Shown in pieces: positions 5,515 to 32,205 of a stretch of DNA of 47,537 nucleotides (its first letter is position 1; each line of letters starts with the position of its first letter). A program made the position numbers and the translations under genes. The DNA is from Acidobacteriaceae bacterium. Its GTDB lineage: Bacteria; Acidobacteriota; Terriglobia; Terriglobales; Acidobacteriaceae. The stretch lies in NCBI GenBank assembly GCA_003166855.1, contig PMUM01000083.1:32481-80017 (forward strand), written 5' to 3'. The notes under the pieces were generated by a model, which ran no database searches, was not told the DNA's origin, and saw only the letters and a program-made list of their open reading frames with translations.

Positions 5515-5558
5515 GTTAAGAGTTTGAAAAGCATGGGTAAAGTTTTTGTGATCAGGGC
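5515..5558 (-). promoter_or_regulatory. 11-bp phased repeat array (GTAAA orientation)
   Basis: Units GTTAA (5515), GAAAA (5526), GTAAA (5537) and GTGAT (5548) are each exactly 11 bases apart. Read on the minus strand this is TTTAC...TTTTC...TTAAC, pointing toward the candidate RNA leader and phosphoesterase about 500 bases away. It matches the pattern of the other arrays in the window, although two units are imperfect. Confidence 0.45.
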
Positions 5559-6014
5559 TGTTGCCGCCAGACCAACACAACGTGCTGGAGAGGTTCCGCA
5601 TCGGATGCTACTGAACACTCTGCCTCCAGAGTGCGTCGTCAACGGCTGTGCCGCGGAGCCATATCTGCGCGGTCACCGGAAAGGAGGGAGCAGCGCGATC
5701 AGGAGCGAGGAGAGAGCACCAAAGAGGCGAGGGGTTCGCGCGCGGGAACGTGCGGGGAGAGAAGGTGAGTTCCTTGCCCTGATCGCATCGATAACCTGAG
5801 TAATCTTGATGTTCATTGGCATCGCGTCAATTCTGTCTCATCCAATGATTCCAGCGACAGGAACCTAAACGTGCCAACGAGCAGTCTCCAACAACTCGGA
5901 AAGCTGTTCCCGCGCGATAGCACTGCCGGTCCTTGGGCATTTCCGGTTGCCGCACGGATCCATGGCGAACCAACGCAAGAGGATTCTCGCGGGAATATAC
6001 AAGAAAGAGCAGTG

Positions 6015-6393
6015 ATGTTTGGCTGGACACTCCTGATTGCCGCCAGCATTGTCCATGCACAAGATACGCCGCCCGCAACGGCTGTGGGGCCGCGGAGAAC
6101 AGGTGTAGCCGTTACGTGCCCCGATGGGCACACCATTCCCGCCGGTTCAAGAAAAAGACGCTGTCAAAGCTATTGCGGAGTACACAGCGGCACTAACGAT
6201 CTACCCCACCTGGCCGGAAGGGCAGTCCAATCTGGCACTGCTATGCGGCAACACTGGCAACTACAACGCGGCCGTCGAGCACATGCAGGCATATCTCGAA
6301 TTGATGCCAGATGCTCCGGACGCCCGGGCAGCGAAAGATAAGCTCATTGTCTGGCGAGGCAAACTAGGCAAGTCACCAACCAGCGACCAGTAA
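6015..6393 (+). pseudogene. Remnant of an exported TPR protein
   Basis: Two pieces in different frames look like one decayed gene. From 6015 one frame gives a signal peptide (MFGWTLLIAASIVHAQDTPP). About 35 codons later the homology-like signal continues in the next frame from about 6124: KAIAEYTAALTIYPTWPEG, GNYNAAVEHMQAYLELMPDAPDARAAKDK, which is a typical acidobacterial TPR tail ending at a stop at 6391-6393. Full-length relatives, as I recall them, have a larger region between the signal peptide and the TPRs, so both an internal deletion and a frameshift are likely. A short intact TPR protein starting at ATG 6124 is the alternative. Confidence 0.5.
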
Positions 6394-6765: not shown

Positions 6766-6798
6766 TTTACAAAAGCATAACCGAATGTTTACGCAAGA
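6766..6798 (+). promoter_or_regulatory. 11-bp phased repeat array before the Spy-like gene
   Basis: TTTAC (6766), ATAAC (6777) and TTTAC (6788) are spaced by exactly 11 bases, on the coding strand and 45 bases upstream of the start at 6843. The sequence is almost the same as the array before the M48 protease (20772-20804), including TTTACAAAA.CATAAC. Eleven-base direct repeats are the normal target form for OmpR/PhoB-family regulators. Confidence 0.65.
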
Positions 6799-6842: not shown

Positions 6843-7661
6843 ATGAGGACAACTCTCGCACTCATTTTCAGCCTTTTAAGTTTTGTTCCCTTATTTCAGG
6901 CGCCGGCGTTCGGCAGAGATGATTCAGACGCTCCACCACCGCAGATTAAAGTGTCACCGACTAGCGCTGATCTGCCGAGCACGTTGGCAACCATTTTGAC
7001 GGCAAATCCGGTAACCCCACGCGGGCCGAACGATTTGCTCCGAGATTACGAAGCACAGATGGAGGCAGTCTCACGGCGCTTCTCAAATGAGTTGGGTGCG
7101 ATCTCACAAGCGGTTCAATACGGTCAGCTAAGCCGAGAACAGGCTGAAGAGACCACCGGCGAGCGTTATCAGGTGGCGATGATGCAATTTCAGCTACTCA
7201 GTGCACTTCATGCGATGCTGAAGCGAGACGTCGATCGGGATCAGGCGGCGCGACACGGAATGAAGGCATCGCAACAGGCCGAAACCGTGCAGGTTGTGCT
7301 GCCGTTTTCATCGCTGCAATTGAACCCTTCGCTGATTCAATATCTGCAGTTAACGCAAGCACAGGCCGTCGCTATTGAAGAACTCATGGAGGATGAGCGT
7401 CGCAACCTCGAACCCATTATGGCGGAGATTAAAACTGCCGGCCAAAGACTGTTGTGGCTCAACCGAGACCACGTCGAGGGCAAGGACCCTGAGGAAGAAG
7501 TTCATGCCGTGGCCGCTTCGCAGGCTGCGGCGCTTTCCAAACTGATCGTTGCGAATTCACACATGCACGCCAGAATCTACCAACTGCTGAATGGGGAGCA
7601 GCGCCGCAAACTGGACAAACTGGAGCGGACTGATGATTTGTGGACGAGCAAGGCAGACTAG
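6843..7661 (+). CDS. Spy/CpxP-like periplasmic protein
   Basis: Exported helical protein of about 272 residues. I choose ATG 6843 because AAGGAGG (6827-6833) lies nine bases upstream and a good signal peptide follows (TLALIFSLLSFVPLFQAPAFG). The mature part is charged and helical and contains two LTxxQ-like motifs, YLQLTQAQAVAIEEL and LLNGEQRRKLDKL, the hallmark of the Spy/CpxP family of periplasmic chaperones and stress sensors. The pair is separated by an unusually long helical stretch, so it is a distant relative. The array at 6766-6798 sits in its promoter region, which fits an envelope-stress gene. The next gene, the DUF5666 protein, has its own array. Substrate and partner are unknown. 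Confidence 0.7.
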   Translation: MRTTLALIFSLLSFVPLFQAPAFGRDDSDAPPPQIKVSPTSADLPSTLATILTANPVTPRGPNDLLRDYEAQMEAVSRRFSNELGAISQAVQYGQLSREQAEETTGERYQVAMMQFQLLSALHAMLKRDVDRDQAARHGMKASQQAETVQVVLPFSSLQLNPSLIQYLQLTQAQAVAIEELMEDERRNLEPIMAEIKTAGQRLLWLNRDHVEGKDPEEEVHAVAASQAAALSKLIVANSHMHARIYQLLNGEQRRKLDKLERTDDLWTSKAD

Positions 7662-7680: not shown

Positions 7681-7723
7681 TTTACAGATCTTTACGCTTG
7701 CTTAACGGATGTTTTACTACCGG
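7681..7723 (+). promoter_or_regulatory. 11-bp phased repeat array before the DUF5666 gene
   Basis: TTTAC at 7691, TTAAC at 7702 and TTTAC at 7713 are spaced by 11 bases; a further TTTAC lies 10 bases before, at 7681. The array ends about 49 bases before the ATG at 7772, close to the distance seen at the Spy-like gene (45 bases). Confidence 0.6.
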
Positions 7724-7771: not shown

Positions 7772-8425
7772 ATGCGGAAAATGTGCATTGTCGCGATGTT
7801 TGCTCTCACCAGTGTTTTGGGTTGGAGTCAGGATGGGCAGGCCAGTCCGGCTCTGCAGGAGCCGGGAAGTGAACAGGCAGGACCGCGCCATCGTGGTCCT
7901 GGAGTCGCTGGAACCATTACAGCAATCGATGACAGCAAAATAACCATCAAGACGTCTGATGGCGCAACCGTTCAGGTTACGACCACCGAGGGCACTCAAT
8001 TCCGCAAGAACCGTGAGCCGGCCAAGCTAAGTGACTTCAAGGTGGGAGATGACATCTTCGTTGCGGGTGACCTGAAAGATGGAGTTGTGCAAGCAAGAAT
8101 GGTTGGTAGCCGTCCAGCGGGAGGACCGGGTCCTGAGTTCCGGGAAGCTCTCGGCAAACACTTTATCGCGGGCGAAGTCAAAGCGATCAACGGAACACAG
8201 ATAACCGTTCTTCGTCCCGACGGCGTGAGTCAGAAGATTACCGTTGATGAGAACACATCATTTCGCAAGGATCAGGAAAGCATAACCCTTGCGGACATTA
8301 AAGTCGGAGATCATGTATTTGGACGCGGCGAGGTCAAAAAAGACGTCTTCATACCAGCAGACCTAAATGTGGGTGAGCCGTCCTTTATGGGCCCGCCCCC
8401 GGATGGCAAGCCCGGGCCCCAATAG
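7772..8425 (+). CDS. Exported DUF5666 protein
   Basis: A 217-residue secreted protein. The N terminus is a signal peptide (MCIVAMFALTSVLGWSQ). The body holds two copies of an OB-like beta module of the DUF5666 type: GTITAIDDSKITIKTSDG...KVGDDIFVAGDL at about 45-105 and GEVKAINGTQITVLRPDG...KVGDHVFGRGEV at about 130-185. The end is rich in Pro and Gly. DUF5666 proteins are envelope or periplasmic proteins of unknown biochemical function. GGAAAGG lies upstream of the ATG as a plausible ribosome-binding site. The Oar-like receptor follows 66 bases later on the same strand. Confidence 0.75.
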   Translation: MRKMCIVAMFALTSVLGWSQDGQASPALQEPGSEQAGPRHRGPGVAGTITAIDDSKITIKTSDGATVQVTTTEGTQFRKNREPAKLSDFKVGDDIFVAGDLKDGVVQARMVGSRPAGGPGPEFREALGKHFIAGEVKAINGTQITVLRPDGVSQKITVDENTSFRKDQESITLADIKVGDHVFGRGEVKKDVFIPADLNVGEPSFMGPPPDGKPGPQ

Positions 8426-8491: not shown

Positions 8492-11400
8492 ATGGGGGTG
8501 GGTTCCGCGCAATGCAGCCATTGGACAACTACGGCGCCGCTCTTAGTCAGCGCAGCCGTGGCACTGCTTTTTTTTGCCTCTCCACTTCTTGACGCACAGA
8601 ACTCTTTTCCCATCAATGAAGCCCGTGCCATTCGCGGCGCGGTGAAGTCATCGGGAACCGCCATTCCCGGTGTGACCATCACTGCAGCCAATACGCTCAG
8701 CGGGCAAAAAACCAGCACGTCCACTGATGTCAACGGGAAGTACAACTTGGAGGTGAGCGCAAAGGGCCGCTATGTTGTGCGCGCACAGATGGCGGCCTTT
8801 GCTTCATCGACCCAAGAGGTGATGATCCATGACAACGCGCCCATAGCTAAGGCGGATTTTGATCTGATCTTACTTTCGCGGGCGCAGGAACTCGACAAAA
8901 AACGGGGGCAGCAAGCAAGCCTTGCATCCGGGCCGGCAACTCAAGGTTTCCGGACTCTATCGTTGCTTCAGAGCGACAGCACATTTGCTGGGGCCAATGG
9001 TGTCACTGGGGGAGCGGAGTCGGTGAACTCCGATCTGCTCGCCCCTGGAATGTCCAACACAAGCGGCACCGAGTCCGTATCAGTTTCTGCCAACACGGCT
9101 ACATCGTTCGCCAACATGAGCAGTGAAGAGATGCGCCAGCGTTTTGAAGAGTTCCGACAACAAAATGACGGGCCAGGCGGAAGTGCCGGAGGTGGTGGAG
9201 GGCTTGGCGGTCCCGGTGGCGGTGGACCTGGAGGTGGGCCGGGATCGGGATTCGGTGGACCAGGCGGGGGTCCGCCGCCGTTCGCGCTATTTGGAGGGAA
9301 CCGTGGGCGGCTCAATCTGAATCGTCCGCATGGTTCGTTGTTTTACACAGTTGGGAGCGATGCCCTGAATGCAGCGCCTTACTCACTGACTGGTCAGCCT
9401 GTTGCCAAGCCGGGATACTTGCAGAATCAGTTCGGCGTGAATTTGGGTGGGCCGTTAAGAATTCCAAAAGTCTACGCGAACAATAAGACGTTCTTCTTTT
9501 TCAACTACAACGGTTCGCGGAGCGAAAATCCATACGATGCTTTCTCGACGGTACCAACGGCGGCGGAACGCGGCGGAGACTTTTCGCATTCGACCTATCA
9601 GGGAAATGCCGTTCAGATCTTTAATCCGTATACGGGAACAGTGATCCCAGGGAACAATCTGCAGAATTCGGGACTCGCGGTAAGTCCGATTGCAACCGGT
9701 CTTTTGCAATATGTTCCGTTGCCTAATGTTGCGGGAGCCACGGCCGACACGCAGAATTTTCACTACGTCACTACCGCGAAGAACAACAGCGATGATCTGA
9801 ACATCCGGCTAAACCGTTCCCTTGGAGCCGGTGCCGCGCAATTGCCTCCCGGCCCGCCGGGCCCCGGCGGCTTTCAAGGACCCCACAACGACTTGCTCTT
9901 CGGCTTTCACTATCACTCGTCCAACACCGGTTTGACGAATCCGTTTCCGAGCGTGGGAGGCACGACGACTGTGCGGAGCTTTGATATCCCTCTGGGCTAC
10001 GTCCACAGCTTCGGAAAGATTACAAATTTGGCGCACGTGGATTTCAACCGTAGCCGCACGTCGACGCAAAACCTCTACGCTTTCTCCCAGAATGTCGCCG
10101 GCGACCTAGGGATTGGCGGCGTCTCTCAGAATCCCTTCGATTGGGGGCTCCCCAATTTGTCATTCGTGGATTTCGGCAGCTTGACAGATACGAATCCGCA
10201 GTTCGTGCGCAATCAGACCTGGACGTTCTCAGACAATATGATCTGGCACAGCGGCAAGCACACTTTACGCTGGGGAGGCGATTTTCGGCGGATCCAGCTG
10301 AACACCGAGGCGAGTAGCGATGCCCGCGGAACGTTCGTGTTTACCGGGCTGAATACAGCCCAAACTGTGAGTGGAACACAGGTGGCTAACACCGGGTTTG
10401 ACTTTGCCGACTTTCTACTGGGGCTGCCCGGGCAGACACGCTTGCAGACCACGGAGGCCGGTGCGAACAATTACCACTTCCGCGGAAATTTCTGGGATTT
10501 GTATGCGCAGGAAGATTGGCGAATGCGCGGCAACCTGACGCTGAACTTGGGCGTGCGTTATGAGTATGTTTCACCCTTCAAAGAGCTGAACGGTCACATT
10601 GCAAGCCTCGACGTGTCGCCTGCCTTTCTCGCGAAGGCGACGGTTGACTCGCCGAACTCCGTGCAGCTCGTGCTGCCGGGTGCAAGCAGTTCCTATCATG
10701 GGGTATACCCGTCCACCTTGATGCATCCGGATCGCACCAACTTTGCTCCCCGGATCGGGATTGCGTGGAAGCCTTGGCAAAAGACGATCGTTCGCGCGGG
10801 GTACGGGATCAACTACAACACGACGGCGTATCAAAACATTGCACAGCAGCTTGCGTTCCAGCCGCCATTCGCGACCACCGCCACCAACGTCCAAACCAAT
10901 GCCGGAAGTCTCACATTGCAGAACGGCTTTCCTGCACCGGCACTTCCTATATGCCAGACGAGTGGCGAAACTGACTGTCAATTAACCAACAACTACGCTG
11001 TCAATCCGAACTACCGGCTAGGGTATGTGCAGATCTGGAACTTGAATATACAGCGCGAGATCAGGCCGACGCTTCTGCTGAACATCGACTACACCGGAAC
11101 GAAAGGTACAAGGCTCGACATCTTGGAGGCGCCCAACCGCGATCAAGCGGGAATTCGCATTGCGGCGATCGATGCGTTCAACTGGGAATCCTCCGGCGCC
11201 GATTCCCACGCCAGCGCAGGATCGGTACGACTTAGGAAACGCCTGCACGCTGGTTTCTCCATCGGTGGAACCTACACATTCGCCAAGTCTATCGATGATG
11301 CCGCTACGGTAGGGGGAACTGCAACGACGGTTGCACAGAATCCCTTCAATCTGTCAGCGGAACGGGCTCTGTCGTCTTTCAACCAGACCCACAAGTTTAC

Positions 11401-11968
11401 CGGCGACTACCTGGTTGAGTTTCCCTTCGGTCACGACAAGCGCTGGCTTTCTGATGCAAGTCCGTGGCGGGCAATTTTGGGTGATTGGCAGCTGAGTGGA
11501 GATTGGACGATTGCCTCGGGGCTGCCATCCACTCCGACGGTGTTCGGGGCCGATGTGGAGAGCGGCACGACCGGTACGGTTCGTGCGAACGTGGTACCGG
11601 GGTCATCGATTAGCATCGCCGATCCGACAATTCACCGCTGGTTCAACACCGCGGCATTCCAGGCTCCGGCGTCGCTGGTGGATTGTAACAATCCCGCCGA
11701 TAATCCCCTGAACCTTCCCTGTGTTTATGGAGATGCGCGTCGAAACAGCATTATTGGTCCCGGCACGCTGCTCTTCGACATGTCGCTGACGAAGGTTGTT
11801 GCGATGCGCGAAGGGCGTGTTTTGGAATTCCGCGCATCGGCCTCGAACGTCTTCAACCGCCCACAGTATTCCTCGATCGATACAACGCTGAACTCACCCA
11901 CGTTTGGCCAAGTGACGGCCGTGGGCTCGATGCGGACGATTCAACTGACGGCGAGGGTGCGATTTTGA
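8492..11968 (+). CDS. Oar-like TonB-dependent outer-membrane receptor
   Basis: A 1158-residue outer-membrane protein. After a signal peptide (ALLFFASPLLDAQ) comes a carboxypeptidase-regulatory-like beta-sandwich (about 48-115: IRGAVKSSGTAIPGVTITAAN...NGKYNLEVSAKGRY), a linker with a striking Gly/Pro-rich run (about 230-265), then plug and beta-barrel segments typical of acidobacterial Oar relatives (NKTFFFFNYNG, VPTAAERGGDFS, ILGDWQLSGDWTI). It ends in aromatic IQLTARVRF, the usual beta-signal. These receptors are thought to move large ligands such as peptides or glycans with TonB. No TonB box is clear. The stop overlaps or touches the next gene, indicating co-expression with the VWA protein. 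Confidence 0.9.
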   Translation: MGVGSAQCSHWTTTAPLLVSAAVALLFFASPLLDAQNSFPINEARAIRGAVKSSGTAIPGVTITAANTLSGQKTSTSTDVNGKYNLEVSAKGRYVVRAQMAAFASSTQEVMIHDNAPIAKADFDLILLSRAQELDKKRGQQASLASGPATQGFRTLSLLQSDSTFAGANGVTGGAESVNSDLLAPGMSNTSGTESVSVSANTATSFANMSSEEMRQRFEEFRQQNDGPGGSAGGGGGLGGPGGGGPGGGPGSGFGGPGGGPPPFALFGGNRGRLNLNRPHGSLFYTVGSDALNAAPYSLTGQPVAKPGYLQNQFGVNLGGPLRIPKVYANNKTFFFFNYNGSRSENPYDAFSTVPTAAERGGDFSHSTYQGNAVQIFNPYTGTVIPGNNLQNSGLAVSPIATGLLQYVPLPNVAGATADTQNFHYVTTAKNNSDDLNIRLNRSLGAGAAQLPPGPPGPGGFQGPHNDLLFGFHYHSSNTGLTNPFPSVGGTTTVRSFDIPLGYVHSFGKITNLAHVDFNRSRTSTQNLYAFSQNVAGDLGIGGVSQNPFDWGLPNLSFVDFGSLTDTNPQFVRNQTWTFSDNMIWHSGKHTLRWGGDFRRIQLNTEASSDARGTFVFTGLNTAQTVSGTQVANTGFDFADFLLGLPGQTRLQTTEAGANNYHFRGNFWDLYAQEDWRMRGNLTLNLGVRYEYVSPFKELNGHIASLDVSPAFLAKATVDSPNSVQLVLPGASSSYHGVYPSTLMHPDRTNFAPRIGIAWKPWQKTIVRAGYGINYNTTAYQNIAQQLAFQPPFATTATNVQTNAGSLTLQNGFPAPALPICQTSGETDCQLTNNYAVNPNYRLGYVQIWNLNIQREIRPTLLLNIDYTGTKGTRLDILEAPNRDQAGIRIAAIDAFNWESSGADSHASAGSVRLRKRLHAGFSIGGTYTFAKSIDDAATVGGTATTVAQNPFNLSAERALSSFNQTHKFTGDYLVEFPFGHDKRWLSDASPWRAILGDWQLSGDWTIASGLPSTPTVFGADVESGTTGTVRANVVPGSSISIADPTIHRWFNTAAFQAPASLVDCNNPADNPLNLPCVYGDARRNSIIGPGTLLFDMSLTKVVAMREGRVLEFRASASNVFNRPQYSSIDTTLNSPTFGQVTAVGSMRTIQLTARVRF

Positions 11969-11979
11969 GGACTGCTAGC

Positions 11980-14049
11980 ATGCGCGCTTGCACCAAGAAA
12001 TCCGGTTTGACCTTGCTGCTGTTGGCATATTTTGTAACCGCGGCGCAGGCGCAGCAGCAATCCTACACATTCAAATCGAATGCGGAACTGGTTTTGGTGA
12101 ATGTCGGCGTTCGGGACAAGAGCGGCCGCTTTGTGCGCAATCTAAAGGCTGAAGACTTCACGCTGCTCGAGGACGGAAAGCAGCAGCAGATCGCGTCCTT
12201 CGACATGGAGAACGTAGATGCGCTTCCTTTAAATGAAGTTTCCGCAGACACCACGCATTCCAGTCCAGAGACGCCAACAAATGTCGGGAAGCCACTCGCA
12301 AATTCTGACAACAGCTACCGGGATCGGCGGCTGATGATCTTCTTTTTTGATTTGGCGGACATGGAACCTGAAGAAATTGCTCGCGCCGCAACTGCTGCCA
12401 TCAGTTACGTAGACAAACAGATGCTTCCCGCTGACCTGGTTTCGATTGTTTCCTTGGGAAGCTCATTGCAGATCAATCAAGCGTTTACAGTGGATCACGC
12501 CAGGCTCAAACAGGTTCTTGCATCATTCAGCCCTGGATCAGGACAGGGATATCAGTCCGGCTCCACGGGTTCGACCGAAGGCACCTCCGATACTGCCAAC
12601 CCTTTTACGGTGGACGACACCGAATACAACATCTTCAACACCGATCGGAGGCTTGAAGCTCTCCGCTCGATCGCACAGAGCCTGGAAAAGGTCGAACAGA
12701 AGAAATCACTCATCTATTTCTCCAGCGGCATGGAACGCACCGGGGTCGAAAATCAGTCCGAACTCCGAGCTGCGATCAATGCCGCCGTCCGCGCGAACCT
12801 CGCGATTTATTCGATGGACACGCGCGGGCTACAAGCGATCGTCCCTGGAGGGGAAGCTCAGAACGCCAGCTTGCGCGGAACTTCTCCCTATTCGGGACAG
12901 GCAACATTGAACGCTTTTGATTCGAACTTCAGCAGCCAGGAGACGCTCGTTACCCTGGCAGAAGACACCGGTGGGCGTGCCTTTCTCGACTCAAATGACT
13001 TCGGGCAGGTTTTCCGAGGAGTTCAGGAAGACACCTCGATCTACTATATTCTCGGCTATCGCAGTACGAACCCCGCTCGAGACGGCAAATATCGGCATAT
13101 CACTGTGCGGTTGAAGGCTCCAAATTACAAGTTAGAGTATCGCCGCGGCTATTATGCACCGGCCGATTTCAGGCACTCGAACCAGGAGGATCGGGAATTG
13201 CAGTTGCAGCAAGAGTTGGCCTCGGAGCTGCCGAGCACAGACATGCCTGTCTATCTTTCGGCTGGTTACTTCCGGATGAGCGGCGATAAGTTCTTCGTGC
13301 CAGTGTCGATCGTTGTGCCCGGCTCAGAGATTCCGTTCGTCAGCAAAAGCGACGAGGATCGAGCCACGCTAGACATTATAGGGATGGTGCAAGACCTGCC
13401 CGGCAGGCGGCCGGTGGATCAGATTCGCGATACGGTCAAGCTCTCAGTGAACACTTCCGCACAAGTCCGTCAGAAAAATGTGCAATACAACAACGCTTTC
13501 TTTCTCACGCCCGGACATTATCATCTCAAGTTCGTGGTGCGGGAAAATCAAACCGGACGCATGGGATCGTTCGAGACCGATATCGCGATTCCCGAGCTCA
13601 AAACTCAACCTTTGAAGTTGAGTTCGGTAGTCCTTTCGAGTCAATTGCAGCCTTCGAAAAAAAAGAAGTACGACGATCCGCTGGTTCGCGATGGTTCAGA
13701 AATCGTCCCCAGCGTGACCCACGTATTCACGGCCGCTCAGCATCTTTATTTATATTACGAAGTCTACGATGCTACCGAGGTAAGCGGGGGCAAAGCAAAA
13801 CGCTCCGCTACAAATGACGTCCGCGTGTTAAGCAATGTCCTATTTTTTCAAGGCACCGCAAAGGTATTCGAGACGCCGATTGTGGAAGTGAAAACGGTCA
13901 ATCAGGCTGACCGCAATGCGACTGTGTTTCAATTGGATGTTCCCTTGAACCAGCTCAAGCCCGGTTTCTATACCTGCCAAGTCACCGTCATCGATGACGT
14001 CGCCGGAAAGTTCCTGTTTCCCAGGCTGGCTCTGCTCGTGCGAGAGTGA
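11980..14049 (+). CDS. VWFA-related secreted protein (acidobacterial type)
   Basis: About 689 residues with a signal peptide (LTLLLLAYFVTAAQAQ). The first conserved block, VNVGVRDKSGRFVRNLKAEDFTLLEDGK, is the typical opening of the acidobacterial VWFA-related domain; the Rossmann-like VWA core spans about 105-395 (LMIFFFDLADM, LIYFSSGMERTG, IYYILGYRS). The MIDAS DxSxS motif is not intact (FFDLADM), so metal-dependent adhesion in the classic way is doubtful. The ORF track starts at TTG 11965, but ATG 11980 has GAGGA about eight bases upstream and directly precedes the signal peptide. It follows the Oar-like receptor by about 11 bases, so translation is likely coupled. Function unknown; possibly a surface partner of the receptor. 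Confidence 0.85.
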   Translation: MRACTKKSGLTLLLLAYFVTAAQAQQQSYTFKSNAELVLVNVGVRDKSGRFVRNLKAEDFTLLEDGKQQQIASFDMENVDALPLNEVSADTTHSSPETPTNVGKPLANSDNSYRDRRLMIFFFDLADMEPEEIARAATAAISYVDKQMLPADLVSIVSLGSSLQINQAFTVDHARLKQVLASFSPGSGQGYQSGSTGSTEGTSDTANPFTVDDTEYNIFNTDRRLEALRSIAQSLEKVEQKKSLIYFSSGMERTGVENQSELRAAINAAVRANLAIYSMDTRGLQAIVPGGEAQNASLRGTSPYSGQATLNAFDSNFSSQETLVTLAEDTGGRAFLDSNDFGQVFRGVQEDTSIYYILGYRSTNPARDGKYRHITVRLKAPNYKLEYRRGYYAPADFRHSNQEDRELQLQQELASELPSTDMPVYLSAGYFRMSGDKFFVPVSIVVPGSEIPFVSKSDEDRATLDIIGMVQDLPGRRPVDQIRDTVKLSVNTSAQVRQKNVQYNNAFFLTPGHYHLKFVVRENQTGRMGSFETDIAIPELKTQPLKLSSVVLSSQLQPSKKKKYDDPLVRDGSEIVPSVTHVFTAAQHLYLYYEVYDATEVSGGKAKRSATNDVRVLSNVLFFQGTAKVFETPIVEVKTVNQADRNATVFQLDVPLNQLKPGFYTCQVTVIDDVAGKFLFPRLALLVRE

Positions 14050-15660: not shown

Positions 15661-16257
15661 TTAGAAATGGAAGGCCAGGCCGACTGAAGGCAGAGCTGAA
15701 TGCGTAATGGAAGTACTCAAGGCGCTCTGCCCGAAATTCGGTGCCGAATACACCAGACCCCGGTATTCGACGCGGAAGGAGATTCGCTTGGAAAGAGCGT
15801 AATTCACCCCGCCTCCGTAAACGACCGTTAGCTTCGCTTGCGTTTCTGCTCCTGATAGCGAATGAGACCGCGGGCTAAAGATTAGAGCGCCCCCTCCTGC
15901 CAAGACATACGGACTGAATCTTCCCCTGCCGAATGACGGCAAAGCCTCGACCAAACCCGCCGTCGCCTGGTGATTGTTCGATTGAGTGCCGAACGCCCCT
16001 CCGGTGTAGTCGTATTTTTGGGTGTCTCGATTGAAGCCGTAAACAAACTCCGCTGACAATCCACGACGCAAACGATAACGGTAGGCAATGAGGAAACCGC
16101 CGGTCTCTGTGGGACTATAGGTGTACGCGCTCCCACTGGTAGACTTGGTAAAAAATCCGTTCCCCTGCAAACTGAATTCAGAGCGGCTTTCTTGAGCAAA
16201 ACAAGCGACTGTACTTAGTAAGACGAAAACTCCACAACCAATACTTCTTCGCCACAT
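15661..16257 (-). CDS. Small outer-membrane beta-barrel protein
   Basis: A 198-residue protein with signal peptide (GVFVLLSTVACFAQE) and alternating amphipathic strands: YRYRLRRGLSAEFVYGFNR, RFSPYVLAGGGALIF, KLTVVYGGGVNYALS, ISFRVEYRGLVY. It ends SVGLAFHF, with the terminal aromatic of outer-membrane proteins. Size and strand pattern fit an eight-stranded OmpA/OmpW-like barrel without a peptidoglycan-binding domain. Upstream on its strand are two 11-bp arrays (16424 and 16633) and an inverted repeat (16335-16358), so regulation looks elaborate for so small a gene. Confidence 0.8.
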   Translation of the reverse strand: MWRRSIGCGVFVLLSTVACFAQESRSEFSLQGNGFFTKSTSGSAYTYSPTETGGFLIAYRYRLRRGLSAEFVYGFNRDTQKYDYTGGAFGTQSNNHQATAGLVEALPSFGRGRFSPYVLAGGGALIFSPRSHSLSGAETQAKLTVVYGGGVNYALSKRISFRVEYRGLVYSAPNFGQSALSTSITHSALPSVGLAFHF

Positions 16258-16423: not shown

Positions 16424-16450
16424 GTTAAGGAAGTGTAAAGAGTTGGTTGG
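16424..16450 (-). promoter_or_regulatory. 11-bp phased repeats upstream of the OMP gene
   Basis: GTTAA (16424) and GTAAA (16435) are 11 bases apart, with a weak third unit GTTGG at 16446. On the minus strand this reads TTTAC...TTAAC toward the beta-barrel gene starting at 16257. Confidence 0.5.
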
Positions 16451-16632: not shown

Positions 16633-16665
16633 GTAAAGAATGTGTAAAGAGAAGGTAAACCGTCA
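16633..16665 (-). promoter_or_regulatory. Three perfect GTAAA units at 11-bp spacing
   Basis: GTAAA at 16633, 16644 and 16655. This is the cleanest array in the window, with three identical cores in exact phase. It reads TTTAC toward the minus strand. The next minus-strand gene is the OMP at 16257, nearly 400 bases away, so an unseen transcript start or a small RNA is possible. Confidence 0.6.
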
Positions 16666-17344: not shown

Positions 17345-17686
17345 GTGTCTGTCCGGTGTTGCAGGAGGCTGAGCAAGAGGTCTATGGACAGCCTAGTTGG
17401 CATAGGGACTTGAAGAAACTGGCCGACCTGGGCCTCTTTTGCCTTTAACGATCATCCTTTGTCGCAGCTAGTCGGCACCTGTCCGTGGTTCAGGCTCGCC
17501 CCTGGGGCACGACATGCTCGTAGCTAGCGGGATGACGTGGCGTCATCTCCCTAGGTATAAATGTCATACGCGCGTGATGGCGACCGTTTCAGCGCAGTTG
17601 TCTGATGAGTGTTGGGAATGCGTTAAGTGAGTGTAAAGATTCTGTGTCAATTTTCCCGAGCAGAGAAGGCACGATAGAGTAGGACG
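17345..17686. other. Intergenic region upstream of pilT
   Basis: No gene seen. It contains a short perfect inverted repeat, GATGACG-TGG-CGTCATC (17531-17547), and the phased array at 17611-17654. Confidence 0.5.
17611..17654 (-). promoter_or_regulatory. 11-bp phased array upstream of pilT, reversed orientation
   Basis: GTTGG (17611), GTTAA (17622), GTAAA (17633) and GTGTC (17644) are each 11 bases apart; the two middle units are strong. The TTTAC direction points away from pilT, whose ATG lies only about 32 bases downstream, unlike most other arrays. Confidence 0.45.
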
Positions 17687-20438: not shown

Positions 20439-21113
20439 CGGGAGATTATCATCACTCTCGATATGCGTGGCAAACGGCGCTAGCTGTGGTAATCAGGAAT
20501 TTACATCGAATCCCCTGTCCGGATTACTGATCGGAGAATGGTTTCCAGACCTGCGCTAGGCAACCGCGACCCAGAACGACCGTTCAGGTACGTACGCATA
20601 CGTCACACTCCAAAGGTCATTCTCGGCCGCAGAATGGCGCCAAACTTTACGCGACCAAAACCAAGTCGTTACGAATGATGTTCAAGAAACGACATCCACC
20701 CCGGACGAAGAATCGATTTGAGAACCGCGTTTGTAAGTGGCCAATTGGTGTTTCTTCGTGGGGTACAAAACTTTACAAAAACATAACGAAGCATTTACGT
20801 AGGGGGCGAGAGGGTTCGCATCTCCTTGAGGGTGCGAAGTGACAGACCGGGTTGTGCGCGAGAGCTCCATTCCTCTTTGATCGCTGCAGCAGACTCCTGT
20901 CGCCGGGGCGATGAAGAGGTTACAAAAACGATGAGCATGACGAAATTGCTTGACTCTCTACGGAAACGCAGGCGAGGTTGCCTTTCGTCGGCGGTTCTGT
21001 CTTTTCTCAATACCGTGTTGCTGGCAGAGACACCCACACGGGGATCAGGATCGTACCGCGCGGGCGGGCGTACACGAGTCGGTAAGAATATGTTTGGCGG
21101 AAGGGAGTTTCCC
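20439..21113. other. Divergent intergenic region and M48 leader
   Basis: The strong array at 20772-20804 lies here. A weaker candidate stands further upstream: TTTAC 20646, AAAAC 20657 and GTTAC 20668, also 11 bases apart. An imperfect hairpin (TTCGCATC/GGTGCGAA, about 20815-20838) follows the strong array. The ORF track extends the M48 frame to 20826, but that stretch does not look like protein, so the gene has a leader of up to 300 bases. Confidence 0.5.
20772..20804 (+). promoter_or_regulatory. 11-bp phased repeat array upstream of the M48 protease
   Basis: TTTAC (20772), ATAAC (20783) and TTTAC (20794) in exact 11-base phase. Sequence and spacing are nearly the same as the array before the Spy-like gene (6766-6798), although the two genes are unrelated and 14 kb apart. 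Confidence 0.65.
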
Positions 21114-22220
21114 ATGAAATTGCGATGGCTGGCAATCGCGATGGCAATGCCGACCTTCAGCGTAGGCCTCTGGACGTTGGCGCAGGTTCAGGATCAGAAT
21201 AAAGACCAACCCAAGTCGGGTGATGTTCAGAATGCACCCGCGCAGGCTCCGGCCGCCCTGCCCACACAGGACGACAGCCAGATCAAGCACGATGGCACAA
21301 AGAAGGACGTAAATGCGGTGGGAAGCCGCAACGTCGGTTGCGGGCGCGGCGTCGGCAACTGGTACTCGGTGGAAAGCCAGGTGGCGCAAGGCCGGAAGTA
21401 CGCGCAGCAGATCGAGTCGCAAATCAAGCTGCTAGATGATCCGGTGGTAACGGAGTATGTCAACCGGATCGGCCAAAACCTGGTGCGGAACTCTGACGCA
21501 CAGGTACCCTTCACAATCAAGGTGATCGACTCCGACGTGGTAAATGCAATGGCGCTTCCGGGCGGATTCTTTTACGTGAACTCGGGGTTACTCCTGGCGG
21601 CCGACGAAGAAGCGGAAATGGCGGGCGTAATGGCTCACGAAATCGCCCACGTGGCGGCGTGCCACTACGGGCGCGAAATGACCAGGGCGCAGTTGTTGCA
21701 GATGTCCTCGATTCCGCTGATCATCATTGGCGGACCGATTGGCTACGGAGCGTACGAAGCGTCGGGGCTGGCGATCCCCATGACCTTCCTGAAGTTCTCC
21801 CGCGACTTCGAGTCCGAGGCCGACTATCTGGGCGTGGAGTGTATGTACCACGCCGGATATGACCCGTCGGCGTTTGTCTCGTTCTTCGAAAAGATTCAGG
21901 CGATGGAGAAGAAGAAGCCTGGGATACTGTCTAAGGCATTCGCCTCGCACCCGCAGACTCCGGATCGCGTTGAGAAGACGCAGGAGGAAATTAAAAGGAT
22001 CCTGCCGTCAAGGCCGCAGTACGTTGTGACCACCTCGGAATTTGACGAGGTCAAAGCACGACTGGCGTCGATCGAGAATCGCCACAAGGTGCTGGATCCG
22101 AAAGACGCCAACAAGCCCAGCTTGCGGCGGACTTCCGCCGGCAGCGACGGCAATACCGGGAATGGCCAGAGCGATGATGATCGTCCGACCTTGAAGCGTC
22201 GGGATGATTCGTCGAACTAG
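21114..22220 (+). CDS. Exported M48 family metalloprotease
   Basis: About 368 residues from ATG 21114, chosen because GGAAGGGAG (21099-21107) lies seven bases upstream and a signal peptide follows (WLAIAMAMPTFSVGLWTLAQ). The zinc site is MAHEIAHVAACH (His175, Glu176, His179) with the third ligand in FESEADYLG near residue 233-235. The domain resembles BepA/LoiP-type periplasmic quality-control proteases of M48 but has no TPR domain; after the protease comes a helical, charged tail. A GCGRGVGNWYS motif precedes the catalytic domain. BepA-like enzymes degrade misassembled outer-membrane proteins, in keeping with the envelope-stress type array upstream. Confidence 0.88.
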   Translation: MKLRWLAIAMAMPTFSVGLWTLAQVQDQNKDQPKSGDVQNAPAQAPAALPTQDDSQIKHDGTKKDVNAVGSRNVGCGRGVGNWYSVESQVAQGRKYAQQIESQIKLLDDPVVTEYVNRIGQNLVRNSDAQVPFTIKVIDSDVVNAMALPGGFFYVNSGLLLAADEEAEMAGVMAHEIAHVAACHYGREMTRAQLLQMSSIPLIIIGGPIGYGAYEASGLAIPMTFLKFSRDFESEADYLGVECMYHAGYDPSAFVSFFEKIQAMEKKKPGILSKAFASHPQTPDRVEKTQEEIKRILPSRPQYVVTTSEFDEVKARLASIENRHKVLDPKDANKPSLRRTSAGSDGNTGNGQSDDDRPTLKRRDDSSN

Positions 22221-22356: not shown

Positions 22357-23565
22357 TCACTCATGTCTTAAAGCCTCGATCGGATCGAGTCGTGCTGCGC
22401 GTCTGGCCGGCAAGTATCCAAACATCACGCCGATTGCTCCCGAAAACACGAAAGCCACTGTGTTGATCTGAAGATTGAAGAGAAAGGGCACCTGCATGAG
22501 CCGCGCAAGGAGCGCAGACGCCGCAGTGGCTAGAAGGATTCCAACCAATCCGCCGACCGAGGAGAGCGTTACGGCCTCCACCAGAAACTGCAACAGAACT
22601 TCGTGCTCGCGCGCACCAACCGCAAGCCTCGTGCCGATTTCCCGAGTGCGTTCGGTGACCGAAACCAACATGACATTCATGATACCAATGCCGCCCACCA
22701 GTAGACTGACTGCGGCTACCGCGCCCAGCAGTGCTGTAAGCACGCGGGTCGCGCCCGACATCGTTTCGGCGATTTCTTTTGTGTCTAGAACATTGAAATC
22801 GTCGTCTTCGTCGCCCGGGATATGGCGACGCTCGCGCAAAAGAGATTCGATCTGTTTCTGCGCACTTTCGGTGGACCGGCCCTCACTGACGGATACCATC
22901 ACAGTGCCCACATCCTGCGTGCCCGCAAGCCGCCGCTGAAATGTCTCGAAGGGCATGACAACCGTGTCGTCCTGGTCTCTTCCCATCGATGCTTGCCCCT
23001 TGGAAGTGAGGAGACCCACGATCTCGCAGGAGAAATTCTTGACGCGGATTTCGCCGCCGACAGGGTTTTGAGTCCCGAAAAGCGTCCTTCTCACCGTCTC
23101 GCCCACGATGCATACAGCTTTCCCGGCGCGCTCTTCCGTTTCTGTGAACGTCCTCCCAGAACTCAGATGCCAACTGCCGGCCGTGAAGTAGTCATCCGTG
23201 GTGCCAGTGATCGTCGTCGTCCAGTTTTTGCCCTCCGACACAACTGTGACACTTTCACTCGCGGCCGGCGCGACCGCCTTAAGGCCAGTGATCTGCGAGC
23301 GGATGGCATCGGCATCGCTGATCTTGAATGATGGCGCACTGGCGCCGGCGCGGCTCGCACCGAAACGCTGGCCGGGCATCACAATCAGCAGATTACTGCC
23401 CAAGCTGGCGATTTGATCCGTTACCGCCTTGGTGGCTCCGTTCCCGAGCGAGACCATCGTGATCACCGCAGAAACGCCAATCACAACACCCAGGACGGTG
23501 AGAAATGAACGCATCACATTGCGTTCCATCTGCTTCAGCGCGATCACCAGACTGTTCCAGATCAT
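22357..23565 (-). CDS. MacB/FtsX-type ABC permease
   Basis: A 402-residue inner-membrane permease. The N-terminal helix (VMRSFLTVLGVVIGVSAVITMVSLG) leads to a large periplasmic domain (about 45-280), followed by three helices (RVLTALLGAVAAVSLLVGGIGIMNVMLVSV, then VSSVGGLVGILLATAAS-like segments, and VAFVFSGAIGVMFGYLPARRAARLDPIEALR). This is the four-helix MacB_PCD plus FtsX topology. In canonical MacB the ATPase is fused; here it is a separate gene whose stop overlaps this start by four bases. It is the last gene of the efflux operon and works as a mechanotransmission pump with the adaptor and the outer-membrane channel. Confidence 0.92.
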   Translation of the reverse strand: MIWNSLVIALKQMERNVMRSFLTVLGVVIGVSAVITMVSLGNGATKAVTDQIASLGSNLLIVMPGQRFGASRAGASAPSFKISDADAIRSQITGLKAVAPAASESVTVVSEGKNWTTTITGTTDDYFTAGSWHLSSGRTFTETEERAGKAVCIVGETVRRTLFGTQNPVGGEIRVKNFSCEIVGLLTSKGQASMGRDQDDTVVMPFETFQRRLAGTQDVGTVMVSVSEGRSTESAQKQIESLLRERRHIPGDEDDDFNVLDTKEIAETMSGATRVLTALLGAVAAVSLLVGGIGIMNVMLVSVTERTREIGTRLAVGAREHEVLLQFLVEAVTLSSVGGLVGILLATAASALLARLMQVPFLFNLQINTVAFVFSGAIGVMFGYLPARRAARLDPIEALRHE

Positions 23566-24317
23566 CGGCGCGCCCTCTGGGTAGAGGTATCGGATTCGAT
23601 CTGCCCGTCAACAAATCGAACGATGCGATTCGCGTAAGCTGCGATATCGGGATCGTGCGTGACTATCAGGACGGTGATCCCACGATCGCGGTTCAGGGAT
23701 CGCAACAGTTCCATGATCTCGCGCCCGCGTTGCGAGTCCAGATTCCCGGTGGGCTCATCGGCCAACAGCACCAATGGTTGCGTAACCAGCGCGCGGGCTA
23801 TTGCCACTCTCTGCTGCTGTCCCCCGGAAAGTTCAGCGGGCGTATGCGTTTCCCAGCCGGCCAGTCCTACCGAATCGAGGGCTTGCCCCGCGGCTTCCCG
23901 CCGCTCTGAAGCGGGCCGGTTGCGGTAGAGCAGCGGAAGTTCGACGTTTTCCAGCGCTGTCGTGCGCGCCAGCAAATTGAAACCCTGGAAGACAAATCCA
24001 AGAAAGTGCCTTCGCAACAAAGCGCGCTGGTCGCGCGACAATCTCTCTACCTGCACTCCCTGGAATTTATAGATGCCCGAGCTAGGCGTGTCCAAACAGC
24101 CAAGCAAATTCATTACCGTGGATTTGCCGGAGCCGCTCGGGCCCATGACCGCGACAAACTCCCCTTCTTCGACGCGCAGATCGATCCCCGAGAGCGCCTC
24201 GAAGGCTGAAGCCCCCTGCCCATATGTTTTGGTAACTCCGAGCAATTCGATCAGCGCGTCATCCGGTTCCCCGGATCTGATCTCCTCGGGCCGAACATGA
24301 TCGAATGTGCAGTTCAT
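23562..24317 (-). CDS. MacB/LolD-type ABC ATPase
   Basis: A 251-residue ATPase with Walker A GPSGSGKST, Q loop FVFQGFNLL, signature LSGGQQQRVAIARA, Walker B LLADEPTGNLDS and switch His THDPDIA. These match the LolD/MacB/FtsE group that couples to FtsX-like permeases. It overlaps the permease by four bases downstream and the adaptor by four bases upstream, so translation of the three is coupled. It would power export of a macrolide, peptide or other envelope substrate. Confidence 0.93.
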   Translation of the reverse strand: MNCTFDHVRPEEIRSGEPDDALIELLGVTKTYGQGASAFEALSGIDLRVEEGEFVAVMGPSGSGKSTVMNLLGCLDTPSSGIYKFQGVQVERLSRDQRALLRRHFLGFVFQGFNLLARTTALENVELPLLYRNRPASERREAAGQALDSVGLAGWETHTPAELSGGQQQRVAIARALVTQPLVLLADEPTGNLDSQRGREIMELLRSLNRDRGITVLIVTHDPDIAAYANRIVRFVDGQIESDTSTQRARR

Positions 24318-25606
24318 TTTGCTGGAGACACGTTGTCGTTGATGACGAGCATGCCTTGTTTAAGGTTTCCGGCCACGATCTCGGTGAGGGTTCCATCGCT
24401 TACACCGGTAGTCACCGGAATCGCCAGAGGAATCCCATTTGCCAAGGTCCAGACCTGCTGTGAATTTCCTTTTGACGTGGTCACCATCCTTTGGGATGAA
24501 TTGTCGGGCGGCGGTCCGGGCATAATGCTGCCAATCAGCCCGTGACTTGGTGGCGCGCTTGCGGTGGTCGACGGCGTGAAACGTAATGCCGCATTGGGAA
24601 CCAGCAATGCATTCTCGCGGGTTACGGTCGCTATCTCGGCGGTGCCTGTCATCCCGGGACGCAAACTGAGGTCATCATTCTTGACCTTCAACACAGTCGA
24701 ATACGAAACCACGTTGTTTTTTGTTGTTGAGCCGTAGGCGACGCGGGTCACTCGGGCCGAATATTCGCGGCCCGGGTACGCATCCACGGTAAATGTCGCG
24801 TTCTGGCCATCTTTCACACCGCCCACATCCGCCTCATCGACATCGACCTTCAGCTCCATCTGGCGTAGATCCTCAGCAACGGTAAACAGAGTGGTCACTT
24901 GCAGAGAAGCTGCCACGGTTTGGCCTGGCTCAACCGCACGCGAAAGCACCACCCCATCCACGGGTGAGCGAATAGAAGCTTTGGAAAGGTTCGTCTGGTC
25001 AGAACTGAGCGTGGCGCGTGCCTGATTGACGTCCGCTTGCGCGCTGCGCACATCCGCTTCCGCACGAGCCAGTGCGGCCTCGGCGCTCTCCATTTCCGTT
25101 TTTGACGGAACCTTCCCGCCCGACAAGCGCGAGACTTCTCGATCCCGATCAAGGCTGACCCTATCCTGGTTCAGCGTAGCCTCAGCCTGCGCAAGTTTTG
25201 CCTGGGACGAGGCCAGGGCGGCTTCGGACTTCGTGATCTCATCTTGCAATTTGGAAACATCCAGTTGGGCCAGTATCTGCCCCTTCTTCACGCGGTCGTT
25301 TTCCTGGGCCAGGACAGTTTCGACCAAACCAGAGAGTTCGCTGCCAACATCAACTTTGTTAGTGGGTGCCAGGTTTCCCGTCGCCGACACCCTAACCCGT
25401 AACTTGCCACGGATTACTTGCACGGTCTGATAACGAGGGACCACATTTTGTGTTCGCACGGCCAAGACACGGTATCCGGCCACGAGCACCAGTAGCGCTA
25501 ATGCACCAAGGATCCACCGGACGTAATTGGTCCGTCGAGCGCTCGCCCGTTCACCGCTGAGAATTTGCGCAAGTTCCTCATTCGGCTTAGCGATAGTTTT
25601 GCTCAC
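24314..25606 (-). CDS. MacA-like periplasmic adaptor (HlyD/RND family)
   Basis: A 430-residue membrane fusion protein. The N-terminal anchor is YVRWILGALALLVLVAGYRVLAV (about 25-47). It is followed by the lipoyl half motif (VRVSATGNLAPTNKVDVGSELSGLVETVLAQENDRVKKGQ), a long coiled-coil hairpin (about 125-215), the second lipoyl half (IRSPVDGVVLSRAVEPGQTV) and beta-barrel domains. This order is that of MacA. It bridges the ABC permease to the outer-membrane channel encoded immediately upstream. Both ends overlap neighbouring genes by four bases. Confidence 0.93.
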   Translation of the reverse strand: MSKTIAKPNEELAQILSGERASARRTNYVRWILGALALLVLVAGYRVLAVRTQNVVPRYQTVQVIRGKLRVRVSATGNLAPTNKVDVGSELSGLVETVLAQENDRVKKGQILAQLDVSKLQDEITKSEAALASSQAKLAQAEATLNQDRVSLDRDREVSRLSGGKVPSKTEMESAEAALARAEADVRSAQADVNQARATLSSDQTNLSKASIRSPVDGVVLSRAVEPGQTVAASLQVTTLFTVAEDLRQMELKVDVDEADVGGVKDGQNATFTVDAYPGREYSARVTRVAYGSTTKNNVVSYSTVLKVKNDDLSLRPGMTGTAEIATVTRENALLVPNAALRFTPSTTASAPPSHGLIGSIMPGPPPDNSSQRMVTTSKGNSQQVWTLANGIPLAIPVTTGVSDGTLTEIVAGNLKQGMLVINDNVSPAK

Positions 25607-27126
25607 GATTGTTGTCCTTGCTTTGCCGATATGGGGTTCGTTCCCGCCGCAGAGGACCAGCCACCTCCCAGAGCTTTGTAGAGCTTGATGAGGGCCGTAG
25701 TGCGATCTGCTTGAGTTTGCGCCGCACTATCCTCAATCGAAAGCACGGTGCGTTCGGTATCGAGTACCGTCTGGAAATCGACCAAGCCCGCGGTGTACCG
25801 AGTGCGAGCGAGCACGGCAGCATTGCGTGCCGCGTCGGCAGCCGTGTTCAGAGCCGCCAAACGTTCTCGGCTTTTCTCAAACGAAACGAGCGAGTCCTCA
25901 ACGTCCTGCAACGCGGTGAGCACGGTTGATTCGTACGAGATGACGGCTTGTTCCTGCACGGCGCTTTGAATTTCAATCTGCTGGCGAATACGGCCACGGT
26001 CAAAAAGAGTCTGGGTTATAGTGCCGGAGCCTGAGCCCAGCAACGTGGTGCCGCTCATCAAGGCGATCGTGGTGCCTCCCGATACCGCTCCTCCCGAAGC
26101 TGTGCCCAGCAGTTGCTCGACCAAGAATGAACCACTCAATGAGAAGCTCGGGTAGCGTGCGGCATTCTTCTGCCCGAGGCGCGCCGTCTCGGCAACGATC
26201 TTCTGCTCCGCAGCCCGCACATCGGGACGCTGTCGCAGGGTATCGGCAGGAATTCCGATCGCTACGGTATCCGGCACCGACGGAATCGGTGCTGGCGCGG
26301 CTAACTGATGACTCAAAGTACCCGGACTGACGCCGAGCAGCGTACTAAGGGCATGTTCGCTTAGCGCCACATCGATTTCCAGGGAAGGTATCCCGGCGCG
26401 AGTTTGCTCCAGGGTATAGCGCGCCTGCTCCACATCGATACTGCTTACCAGGCCCGCCTGCGCTCTCCATTCGGTGATCTGAAGTGTTTCGGCTTCGCTC
26501 GCTGCATTTTGCCGAGAAATCTCCAGCCGCATCTGGTAGGAGCGCAAATCCACGTAGTCCAACGCGACTTCGGCCACCAACGATACCAGAGTATTCTGAA
26601 GGGTGGCCTCGCTGTTTCCAACATCGGCCCTTGCCGCTCTCAGGGCGTTGCCGTAGGAACCGAACACGTCGGGCTCCCAACTCGCATCGAGCCCCTCCGA
26701 CAAGACGTTTCCAGTGGATCCTCCGGGAGAATTGCTTGCGTTACCAGTACCCGATAACGACGCAGTGACGGTCGGAAAGCGATTTGCTGCTGCAAGATTT
26801 CGCTCCGCACGGGCCTCCCGTAGATTTGCCCGCGCGGTCCGAAGGCTGGTGTTGTTCTTAAGCGCCCGCCCAATCAGGTCAGACAAAATGTCGTCGCCAA
26901 ATCGCTTCCACCACTGCGACAAATCTCCGGCTGGACTTTGCACGGTATCGGCGTTCATGCTATTCCATGACGGAGGCACCGTTATCGCTGGCTTTGTGGC
27001 CCGGGTCGGGGCTATGCATCCGTTGAGCAACAAAACGACCGAAACCACTGCCGCTACCGCCGCGTACCGAGCTAACTTGCTGGCCCACGCTCTCAGCCTT
27101 TGCTTTACGATGTCGGAATTATTCAT
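25603..27126 (-). CDS. TolC-family outer-membrane efflux lipoprotein (NodT-like)
   Basis: About 507 residues from ATG 27126; the ORF track adds 14 residues to 27168. The shorter start gives a normal lipoprotein signal peptide ending LLLNGC (lipidated Cys37). Two OEP repeats with long helical hairpins are visible, including FGDDILSDLIGRALKNN and TLRQRPDVRAAEQKIVAETARLGQKNAARYPSFSLSGSF, which are typical of the NodT/OprM subgroup. It provides the outer-membrane channel for the MacAB-like pump and is first in the operon. A three-unit 11-bp array lies just upstream (27183-27215), suggesting stress control of the whole operon. Confidence 0.92.
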   Translation of the reverse strand: MNNSDIVKQRLRAWASKLARYAAVAAVVSVVLLLNGCIAPTRATKPAITVPPSWNSMNADTVQSPAGDLSQWWKRFGDDILSDLIGRALKNNTSLRTARANLREARAERNLAAANRFPTVTASLSGTGNASNSPGGSTGNVLSEGLDASWEPDVFGSYGNALRAARADVGNSEATLQNTLVSLVAEVALDYVDLRSYQMRLEISRQNAASEAETLQITEWRAQAGLVSSIDVEQARYTLEQTRAGIPSLEIDVALSEHALSTLLGVSPGTLSHQLAAPAPIPSVPDTVAIGIPADTLRQRPDVRAAEQKIVAETARLGQKNAARYPSFSLSGSFLVEQLLGTASGGAVSGGTTIALMSGTTLLGSGSGTITQTLFDRGRIRQQIEIQSAVQEQAVISYESTVLTALQDVEDSLVSFEKSRERLAALNTAADAARNAAVLARTRYTAGLVDFQTVLDTERTVLSIEDSAAQTQADRTTALIKLYKALGGGWSSAAGTNPISAKQGQQS

Positions 27127-27182
27127 CAGCAGGTCGCAATGACCCTCATCCATTATTTGACCATGCACGCCAGTTTGCGGGT

Positions 27183-27215
27183 GTTAAGTATCAGTTAGCG
27201 AAGGGTAAACTTTTG
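27183..27215 (-). promoter_or_regulatory. 11-bp phased array heading the efflux operon
   Basis: GTTAA (27183), GTTAG (27194) and GTAAA (27205) in exact 11-base phase. On the minus strand it reads TTTAC...CTAAC...TTAAC into the efflux operon, about 57 bases from the preferred start at 27126. Confidence 0.6.
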
Positions 27216-28333: not shown

Positions 28334-28576
28334 ACGTCTCCTTAGAAAAGACAAAAAGTCTGAATCACGAACAGTAGCAACCAAATTCCCTACCTCTAAC
28401 AGAAATCAGGCGCCTACAAAGCCAGGGTACTGGCGACCGTCACGACGCGCAGAATACGGCCAGCCGTCGATGTGAGGTGCCAGATTGGGGGTTCCTTGTT
28501 GACATAAGGTTGTGCGGTCGACGTTCATTTGGGTGATTGGCTTCGTTCCCGAGTTGCCCGATGTAAACCTGACCGG

Positions 28577-28614
28577 GTTAAGAGTCGGTAAAGCCTGTGC
28601 AAACATTTGTAAAC
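28577..28614 (-). promoter_or_regulatory. 11-bp phased array toward the NHL gene
   Basis: GTTAA (28577), GTAAA (28588) and GCAAA (28599) are 11 bases apart, and a further GTAAA follows after 10 bases (28609). Read on the minus strand it is TTTAC...TTTGC...TTTAC...TTAAC. Confidence 0.6.
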
Positions 28615-28698: not shown

Positions 28699-28742
28699 GT
28701 TACAGAATCTTTGCAGACTCTTCACAGTTTCTTAACTCGAGG
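28699..28742 (+). promoter_or_regulatory. Four-unit 11-bp array toward the DUF4397 gene
   Basis: GTTAC (28699), TTTGC (28710), TTCAC (28721) and TTAAC (28732) keep exact 11-base phase over four units, each followed by an A/T/C-rich hexamer ending TC. The array ends about 78 bases before the ATG at 28820. Confidence 0.6.
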
Positions 28743-31809: not shown

Positions 31810-32205
31810 TCATGCCGCGCTCGACACGAAAATGCGCCCTGCAAGGGCTTCCCGGATGGCGATTCTGAGGTCCCGCCAGAGTGAAATCTTCCATACAAAG
31901 GCGGCACCTCCGGCGTCTATGGCATCGTCTGCCCACGAGTCGTCAGAACTCAAAAAAACGATACTTGCTCGGCAACCGAAGCTGCGAAGAATTGTAAGGA
32001 CCGCGAAACCGTCAAGACGAGGCAGGCAAATGTCGAGCACAATGACGTCAGGATCTAGAGCCGCACACAGGTCTATTGCGGCCCAGCCATCGGACGCTGT
32101 ACCAACCACCTCATAGTCTTCGTTCAAGAGCTCAGAGCAGTACTCCAAAATTTCCGCAGTGTCGTCAATAAGGAGAACCCTAGATCGTTGCACGGAGAGC
32201 CTCAC
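31810..32205 (-). CDS. Stand-alone receiver protein
   Basis: A 131-residue protein that is only a CheY-like receiver: acidic pocket VLLIDDTAE, phosphoacceptor in IVLDICLPRLDG, Ser in VFLSSDD and Lys in FVWKISLW. No output domain is present, so it would act by protein contact or as a phosphate sink. It is followed at 31 bases by the CpxR-like gene and preceded at about 120 bases by another stand-alone receiver, all on the same strand. Confidence 0.85.
   Translation of the reverse strand: MRLSVQRSRVLLIDDTAEILEYCSELLNEDYEVVGTASDGWAAIDLCAALDPDVIVLDICLPRLDGFAVLTILRSFGCRASIVFLSSDDSWADDAIDAGGAAFVWKISLWRDLRIAIREALAGRIFVSSAA

Follow-up and report, generated by a model that had tools for sequence, protein, structure and literature searches.

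The closest described relatives of the system reported here are the Cpx responses of Escherichia coli and Pseudomonas aeruginosa. In E. coli, cpxP is divergent from cpxR, a layout that is a feature of E. coli and not common to all Cpx systems. The E. coli cpxP promoter carries TTTAC-N5-TTTAC, and E. coli has about 100 CpxR promoters genome-wide (PMC12802237). The published CpxR box is GTAAA-N4-8-GTAAA (PMC5063474), and in E. coli the Cpx-controlled M48 protease is HtpX (PMC6737893). In P. aeruginosa, the CpxR sites of cpxP, mexA, muxA and yceJ read GTAAA-N6-GTAAA, with an 11-bp period, and muxA and yceJ each have two listed sites 11 bp apart (PMC12802237); such pairs probably amount to three units, as in the arrays described below. 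A literature search combining Acidobacteria and CpxR found no regulon study.

We compared these systems with a window of 47,537 nucleotides (the whole stretch of DNA analysed) from an Acidobacteriaceae bacterium. A family name returned by the family searches, acidobact_VWFA, likewise points to this phylum. The arrays and genes of the locus are as follows.

5515-5541, minus strand: array, target uncertain; a phosphoesterase gene is about 500 nt away (array scan).
6766-6792, plus strand: array, TTTAC-N6-ATAAC-N6-TTTAC, 77 nt ahead of the Spy-like ATG.
6843-7661, plus strand: Spy/CpxP-like periplasmic protein, LTXXQ family (Pfam PF07813, E 8.8e-7).
7691-7717, plus strand: array of the DUF5666 gene, plus a fourth upstream unit (CTTTACAGAT) (pattern scans).
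7772-8425, plus strand: DUF5666 secreted protein (family searches).
8492-11968 and 11965-14049, plus strand: Oar-like outer-membrane receptor and VWA-domain protein, after the DUF5666 gene; possible operon.
15661-16257, minus strand: outer-membrane beta-barrel protein (Pfam PF13505, E 3e-11).
16424-16450, minus strand: second, weaker array of the beta-barrel gene (score 15; could be chance).
16633-16659, minus strand: array TTTAC-TTTAC-TTTAC of the beta-barrel gene (score 18 of 18).
17611-17637, minus strand: weaker array without clear target (score 15; could be chance).
20646-20672, plus strand: weaker array of the M48 gene, 468 nt upstream (pattern scans).
20772-20798, plus strand: array of the M48 gene, 342 nt from the ATG at 21114.
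21060-21100, plus strand: predicted remains of the ancestral M48 promoter, GGGCGTACACG against GGGCGTATAAT in relatives (promoter comparison).
21114-22220, plus strand: secreted M48 metalloprotease, nearest BepA (Pfam PF01435, E 1.4e-30).
22357-27168, minus strand: MacAB-TolC-type efflux operon of four genes (family searches).
27183-27209, minus strand: array of the TolC-MacA-MacB efflux operon (score 16).
28577-28603, minus strand: array of the NHL-repeat protein gene 27317-28384 (score 16).
28699-28736, plus strand: four-unit array of the DUF4397 gene 28820-29500 (array scan).
29560-30981, minus strand: CpxA-like sensor histidine kinase, here CpxA2 (best NCBIfam family CpxA, E 1.7e-97, below cut-off).
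30981-31778, minus strand: CpxR-like response regulator, here CpxR2 (domain and family searches).
31810-32799, minus strand: two stand-alone receiver proteins, head of the cpxRA2 operon (Pfam PF00072 in both).
32835-32861, minus strand: array of the receiver-receiver-cpxR2-cpxA2 operon (proposed autoregulation).
35996-36033, plus strand: four-unit array of the kumamolisin-type protease gene 36228-39041 (pattern scans).

The first-pass annotation had singled out two near-identical sites ahead of the Spy-like and M48 genes. These are real: TTTACAAAAGCATAACCGAATGTTTACGCAAGA lies at exactly 6766-6798 and TTTACAAAAACATAACGAAGCATTTACGTAGGG at exactly 20772-20804, and they are identical at 24 of 33 positions. 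The two genes also bear out their names, with products that match the LTXXQ/Spy family (E 9e-7) and peptidase M48 (E 1e-30). The pattern TTTAC-N5-CATAAC-N6-TTTAC has two exact matches in the window and six at up to two mismatches, against none in 100 shuffles. Both sites can be read as the units TTTAC, ATAAC and TTTAC at 0, 11 and 22, that is, as 11-bp direct repeats, and many sites have a fourth unit upstream, of the form nnYACAnAAnC. Scanning the window for three units at 11 bp gave 19 matches, some overlapping (ten first-order random sequences averaged 1.1). When unit-pair spacing in the locus was counted with no period presupposed, peaks appeared at 11 (15 pairs; 1.1 in shuffles) and at 22; the last 10 kb of the window had no unit pairs at spacing 11. 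What did not survive was the special status of the pair, as the 5.5-36 kb region of the window contains about a dozen similarly built arrays, most of them directly ahead of genes. About ten transcription units in the window carry predicted CpxR-type sites, and TTTAC is oriented in the direction of the target gene in every assigned array.

Replication iterons and mobile-element ends were considered and rejected: most arrays occupy promoter positions of different genes, and their spacers are variable. An Rfam search of the window returned no RNA family. The contig stretches ahead of the window yielded no tRNA, nor did the corresponding loci of the related genomes G030 and G006.

Which protein might read these arrays? 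An OmpR/PhoB-type response regulator adjoins a HAMP-HisKA-HATPase kinase in the window (Pfam domains), as in CpxRA systems. CpxR2 shares 42% identity with E. coli CpxR and has a similar recognition helix (FDRSIDVHISKLRRKL in CpxR2, FDRAIDMHISNLRRKL in E. coli CpxR); over 275 aa, CpxA2 shares 36% identity with E. coli CpxA. The kinase scores best against the CpxA family, at 327 bits, under the cut-off of 800, and CpxR2 scores near-equally as OmpR (206), CpxR (205) and CreB (204), all under cut-off. TTTAC-N6-TTTAC is the reverse complement of GTAAA-N6-GTAAA and falls inside the published CpxR box. Further CpxRA-type features are the box-like sites ahead of genes, the Spy/CpxP-type gene with a site and the system's own operon with a site.

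The locus thus shares with E. coli CpxRA/cpxP its tandem GTAAA-type half-sites reading toward the target (in the same orientation at cpxP), a Spy/CpxP-family target and a kinase and regulator that are 36-42% identical. With P. aeruginosa CpxR it shares the 11-bp period and, among its putative targets, efflux pumps. It differs from E. coli in its repeat period, 11 bp rather than the 10 bp of cpxP, and no divergent cpxP in the E. coli layout lies beside cpxR2, which is preceded by receiver genes instead. Moreover, the E. coli sites are spread over the genome and the P. aeruginosa targets are dispersed, whereas the window sites lie within about 31 kb and probably belong to a system that is bound to its locus and comes second to another CpxR of the genus, CpxR1. 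We consider it highly probable that the arrays are operators of CpxR2 (30981-31778), through which a compact, local envelope-stress regulon would be activated. Weighing against this reading are the scores of CpxR2 and CpxA2 under curated cut-offs, a weak -10 signal, the arrays at 5515 and 17611 without clear target and the distance of the M48 array, 342 nt.

Perhaps another OmpR-family regulator binds the arrays, and the proximity of CpxR2 is coincidental? Tandem repeats at 10-11 bp are shared across the OmpR/PhoB family, and the genome has many OmpR-family regulators (154 first-look candidates). However, the half-site matches CpxR in particular, and the arrays precede the CpxR2 operon and track CpxR2 across genomes. 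Among the 45 genomes of the genus, a close CpxR2 (68-87%) is found elsewhere only in G030, G006 and G026, and the four carriers, including the window genome, form one clade (support 100/99). Exact arrays occur in 3 of these 4 carriers versus 0 of the 41 other genomes (hypergeometric p about 3e-4). We regard binding by another OmpR-family regulator as very unlikely. Sampling 397 genomes from the order added two, of other genera, with a CpxR2-type regulator just past threshold; neither had 11+11 arrays near the regulator. A scan of genome contigs with CpxR2 returned, among the matches listed, only distant OmpR-family regulators (36-46% identical).

The arrays are also confined to the locus. All five strict matches in the 6.94-Mb genome fall in the window, as do 11 of 16 relaxed matches (the reversed control pattern gives 7 matches). 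In G006, a clean, complete genome of 30 contigs, 3 of 3 exact matches to a second pattern and 2 of 2 strict matches fall in a 13-kb part of contig C9 that surrounds the G006 cpxR2. The window's own bin has 6.3% contamination, and its contig, C346, is about 55% GC, compared with about 59% in most other contigs read. The host of C346 is not certain, and the contig may belong to another bin member; locus confinement hence rests more firmly on G006, and the case from G006 and G030 is independent of the host question. The bin also holds two cpxP-box loci (G000:C57:9200 and G000:C230:3746) and two M48 genes, which suggests either a mixed bin or real duplicates. An array-like site, TTTACGGAACGTTTGCGAAGTCTTAACGCC, lies ahead of a KdpD-like kinase gene at G000:C34:331-368 (L191), on a contig whose composition resembles that of C346; it may be an outside target or chance.

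We then asked which bases of the arrays are kept. Between the window and relatives, core units are 75-100% identical and upstream flanks 18-41%. The arrays of the DUF5666 and DUF4397 genes are kept in G030 (L085:5422, core 100%, flank 29%; L084:97, core 80%, flank 18%), and that of the cpxRA2 operon is kept in both G030 (87%, flank 41%) and G006 (79%, flank 31%). Homologues of the kumamolisin-type gene in these two genomes are also preceded by arrays. Conservation of the Spy site, which had been proposed as a check, was borne out: the G006 orthologue has the array at 73 nt, the G026 Spy gene has at most a degenerate array upstream, and the Spy homologues of four genomes without CpxR2 have none.

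The first-pass annotation had read additional meaning into the spacers, since these agreed between the Spy and M48 sites. Their agreement, 9 of 18 spacer bases, is ordinary: the mean over 253 array pairs is 6.1, this pair ranks 18th, and 10-11 bases agree in some pairs ahead of unrelated genes. In the orthologous G006 Spy promoter, only 22% of spacer bases are kept compared with 95% of the cores. We dropped the idea, as spacers are not conserved where cores are. That cores are kept while spacers vary also indicates selection on the half-sites rather than descent of one copied block. Chance, or recent copying of one promoter segment, would account for two sites identical at 24 of 33 bases, but none is expected by chance and many other arrays share the half-sites only; we find this explanation hardly credible.

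A genus-wide regulator deserves closer consideration. Nearly every genome of the genus encodes CpxR1, which shares 57-60% identity and a similar recognition helix with CpxR2. In the loci read, its neighbor is a divergently oriented LTXXQ (cpxP-like) gene, the arrangement seen in E. coli. The two genes flank TTTAC-N5-TTGAC-N6-TTTAC, a 10+11 register, and the first step is 10 bp in 25 of 27 loci (spacing count). Most genomes have one or two such sites. The window genome carries its own CpxR1 copy on contig C230. Another conserved box of the CpxR1 type, TTTTACAAATC and then TTTAC-N5-TTGAC-N6-TTTAC, occurs near position 1501 in L246, L247, L252, L254, L264 and L268, and secondary boxes such as TTTACTCGCTTTGACTGTAGGTTTAC are found in L247, L252 and L254.

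Since CpxR1 is so similar to CpxR2, and its own box uses TTTAC units, might the arrays be bound by CpxR1, with this locus as its main target cluster? Its box in most genus genomes is 10+11, usually with TTGAC in the middle, not 11+11, and genomes with CpxR1 alone have no exact 11+11 arrays; we judge this unlikely. We favor CpxR2 as the reader of the arrays. The two systems are alike in their TTTAC half-sites and LTXXQ-family target and differ in box, number of sites and divergent cpxP layout; the two regulators seem to read similar half-sites at different register, 10+11 for CpxR1 and 11+11 for CpxR2. We infer that register discriminates between them, with the counterpoint that CpxR boxes in the literature allow spacers of 4-8 bases. 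A literature search on paralogue-specific spacing found no report. If correct, the genus would offer a natural case in which the spacing of half-sites may keep two paralogous regulators from cross-talk.

The product of the M48 gene has BepA as nearest named family (NCBIfam E 4.7e-43), far below the model cut-off: the match reaches 148 bits against 570 and covers residues 84-320 only, not the full-length model. The first-pass annotation had placed Spy/CpxP and BepA-like proteases in one stress response of Proteobacteria; in E. coli, bepA is usually counted in the sigma-E regulon, and HtpX is the M48 protease that Cpx controls. Of the 45 genomes of the genus, 41 have the M48 gene, which makes it a core gene. 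TATAAT lies 24-44 nt ahead of its ATG in 28 relatives and also in the other M48 copy of this bin, on contig C178; L236, whose M48 promoter was misaligned, was left out of this judgement. No arrays precede M48 in 29 relatives. The window copy has TACACG in place of TATAAT, and arrays 342 and 468 nt upstream. On the simplest reading, a housekeeping promoter was left for a predicted CpxR2 promoter. Because its array is private to the lineage, M48 looks like a recruited rather than an ancestral target, a natural case in which a core gene may shift from a constant to a stress promoter.

The first-pass interpretation is upheld in part. Co-regulation of the Spy-like and M48 genes by a Cpx-like response has good sequence support, from the CpxR-type motif, the CpxR/CpxA-like genes in the window and the conserved Spy site; the weight placed on spacer identity does not. 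More broadly, we suggest, tentatively and as slightly less likely than not, that two Cpx systems exist side by side and are kept apart by register, with the CpxR2 regulon confined to its locus and M48 recruited to it after losing its housekeeping promoter and gaining an array.

How might the arrays act? We infer that CpxA2 (29560-30981) would sense envelope stress, leading to phosphorylation of CpxR2, and that CpxR2 would activate rather than repress its targets. On the model of OmpR/PhoB-family activators, dimers of CpxR2 would sit head to tail along three to four TTTAC half-sites with 11-bp spacing and contact RNA polymerase. The last half-site would lie at or adjoining the -35 position, and polymerase would be recruited to a weak -10 about 27 nt past the start of that half-site. 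The -10 sequence signal is weak, yet the best of all offsets. Jointly activated would be the Spy-like chaperone, the M48 protease, the MacAB-TolC operon, outer-membrane and secreted proteins and the cpxRA2 operon itself. The system seems to be a self-contained version of a known envelope-stress response, the second in this bacterium. For a group that has received little study, the locus provides a predicted Cpx-type regulon that is complete and has defined sites.

Stand-alone receivers recur in the CpxRA2 locus, at 31810-32205, 32326-32799 and 35414-35851 of the window and likewise at L087:466-939, 5904-6338 and 12697-13134; some are under arrays. The phospho-acceptor Asp is present in 7 of 7 aligned, and some are without the usual Thr/Ser or Lys. 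They might be phosphate sinks or connectors. A TPR-secretin protein gene (33000-35291) is divergent from the cpxRA2 operon, which it adjoins also in G030 and G006; in the window, it shares one intergenic region with the operon's array. Just outside the locus, at 40862-42486, inspection by eye revealed a HipA-like and helix-turn-helix pair, a possible HipBA toxin-antitoxin.
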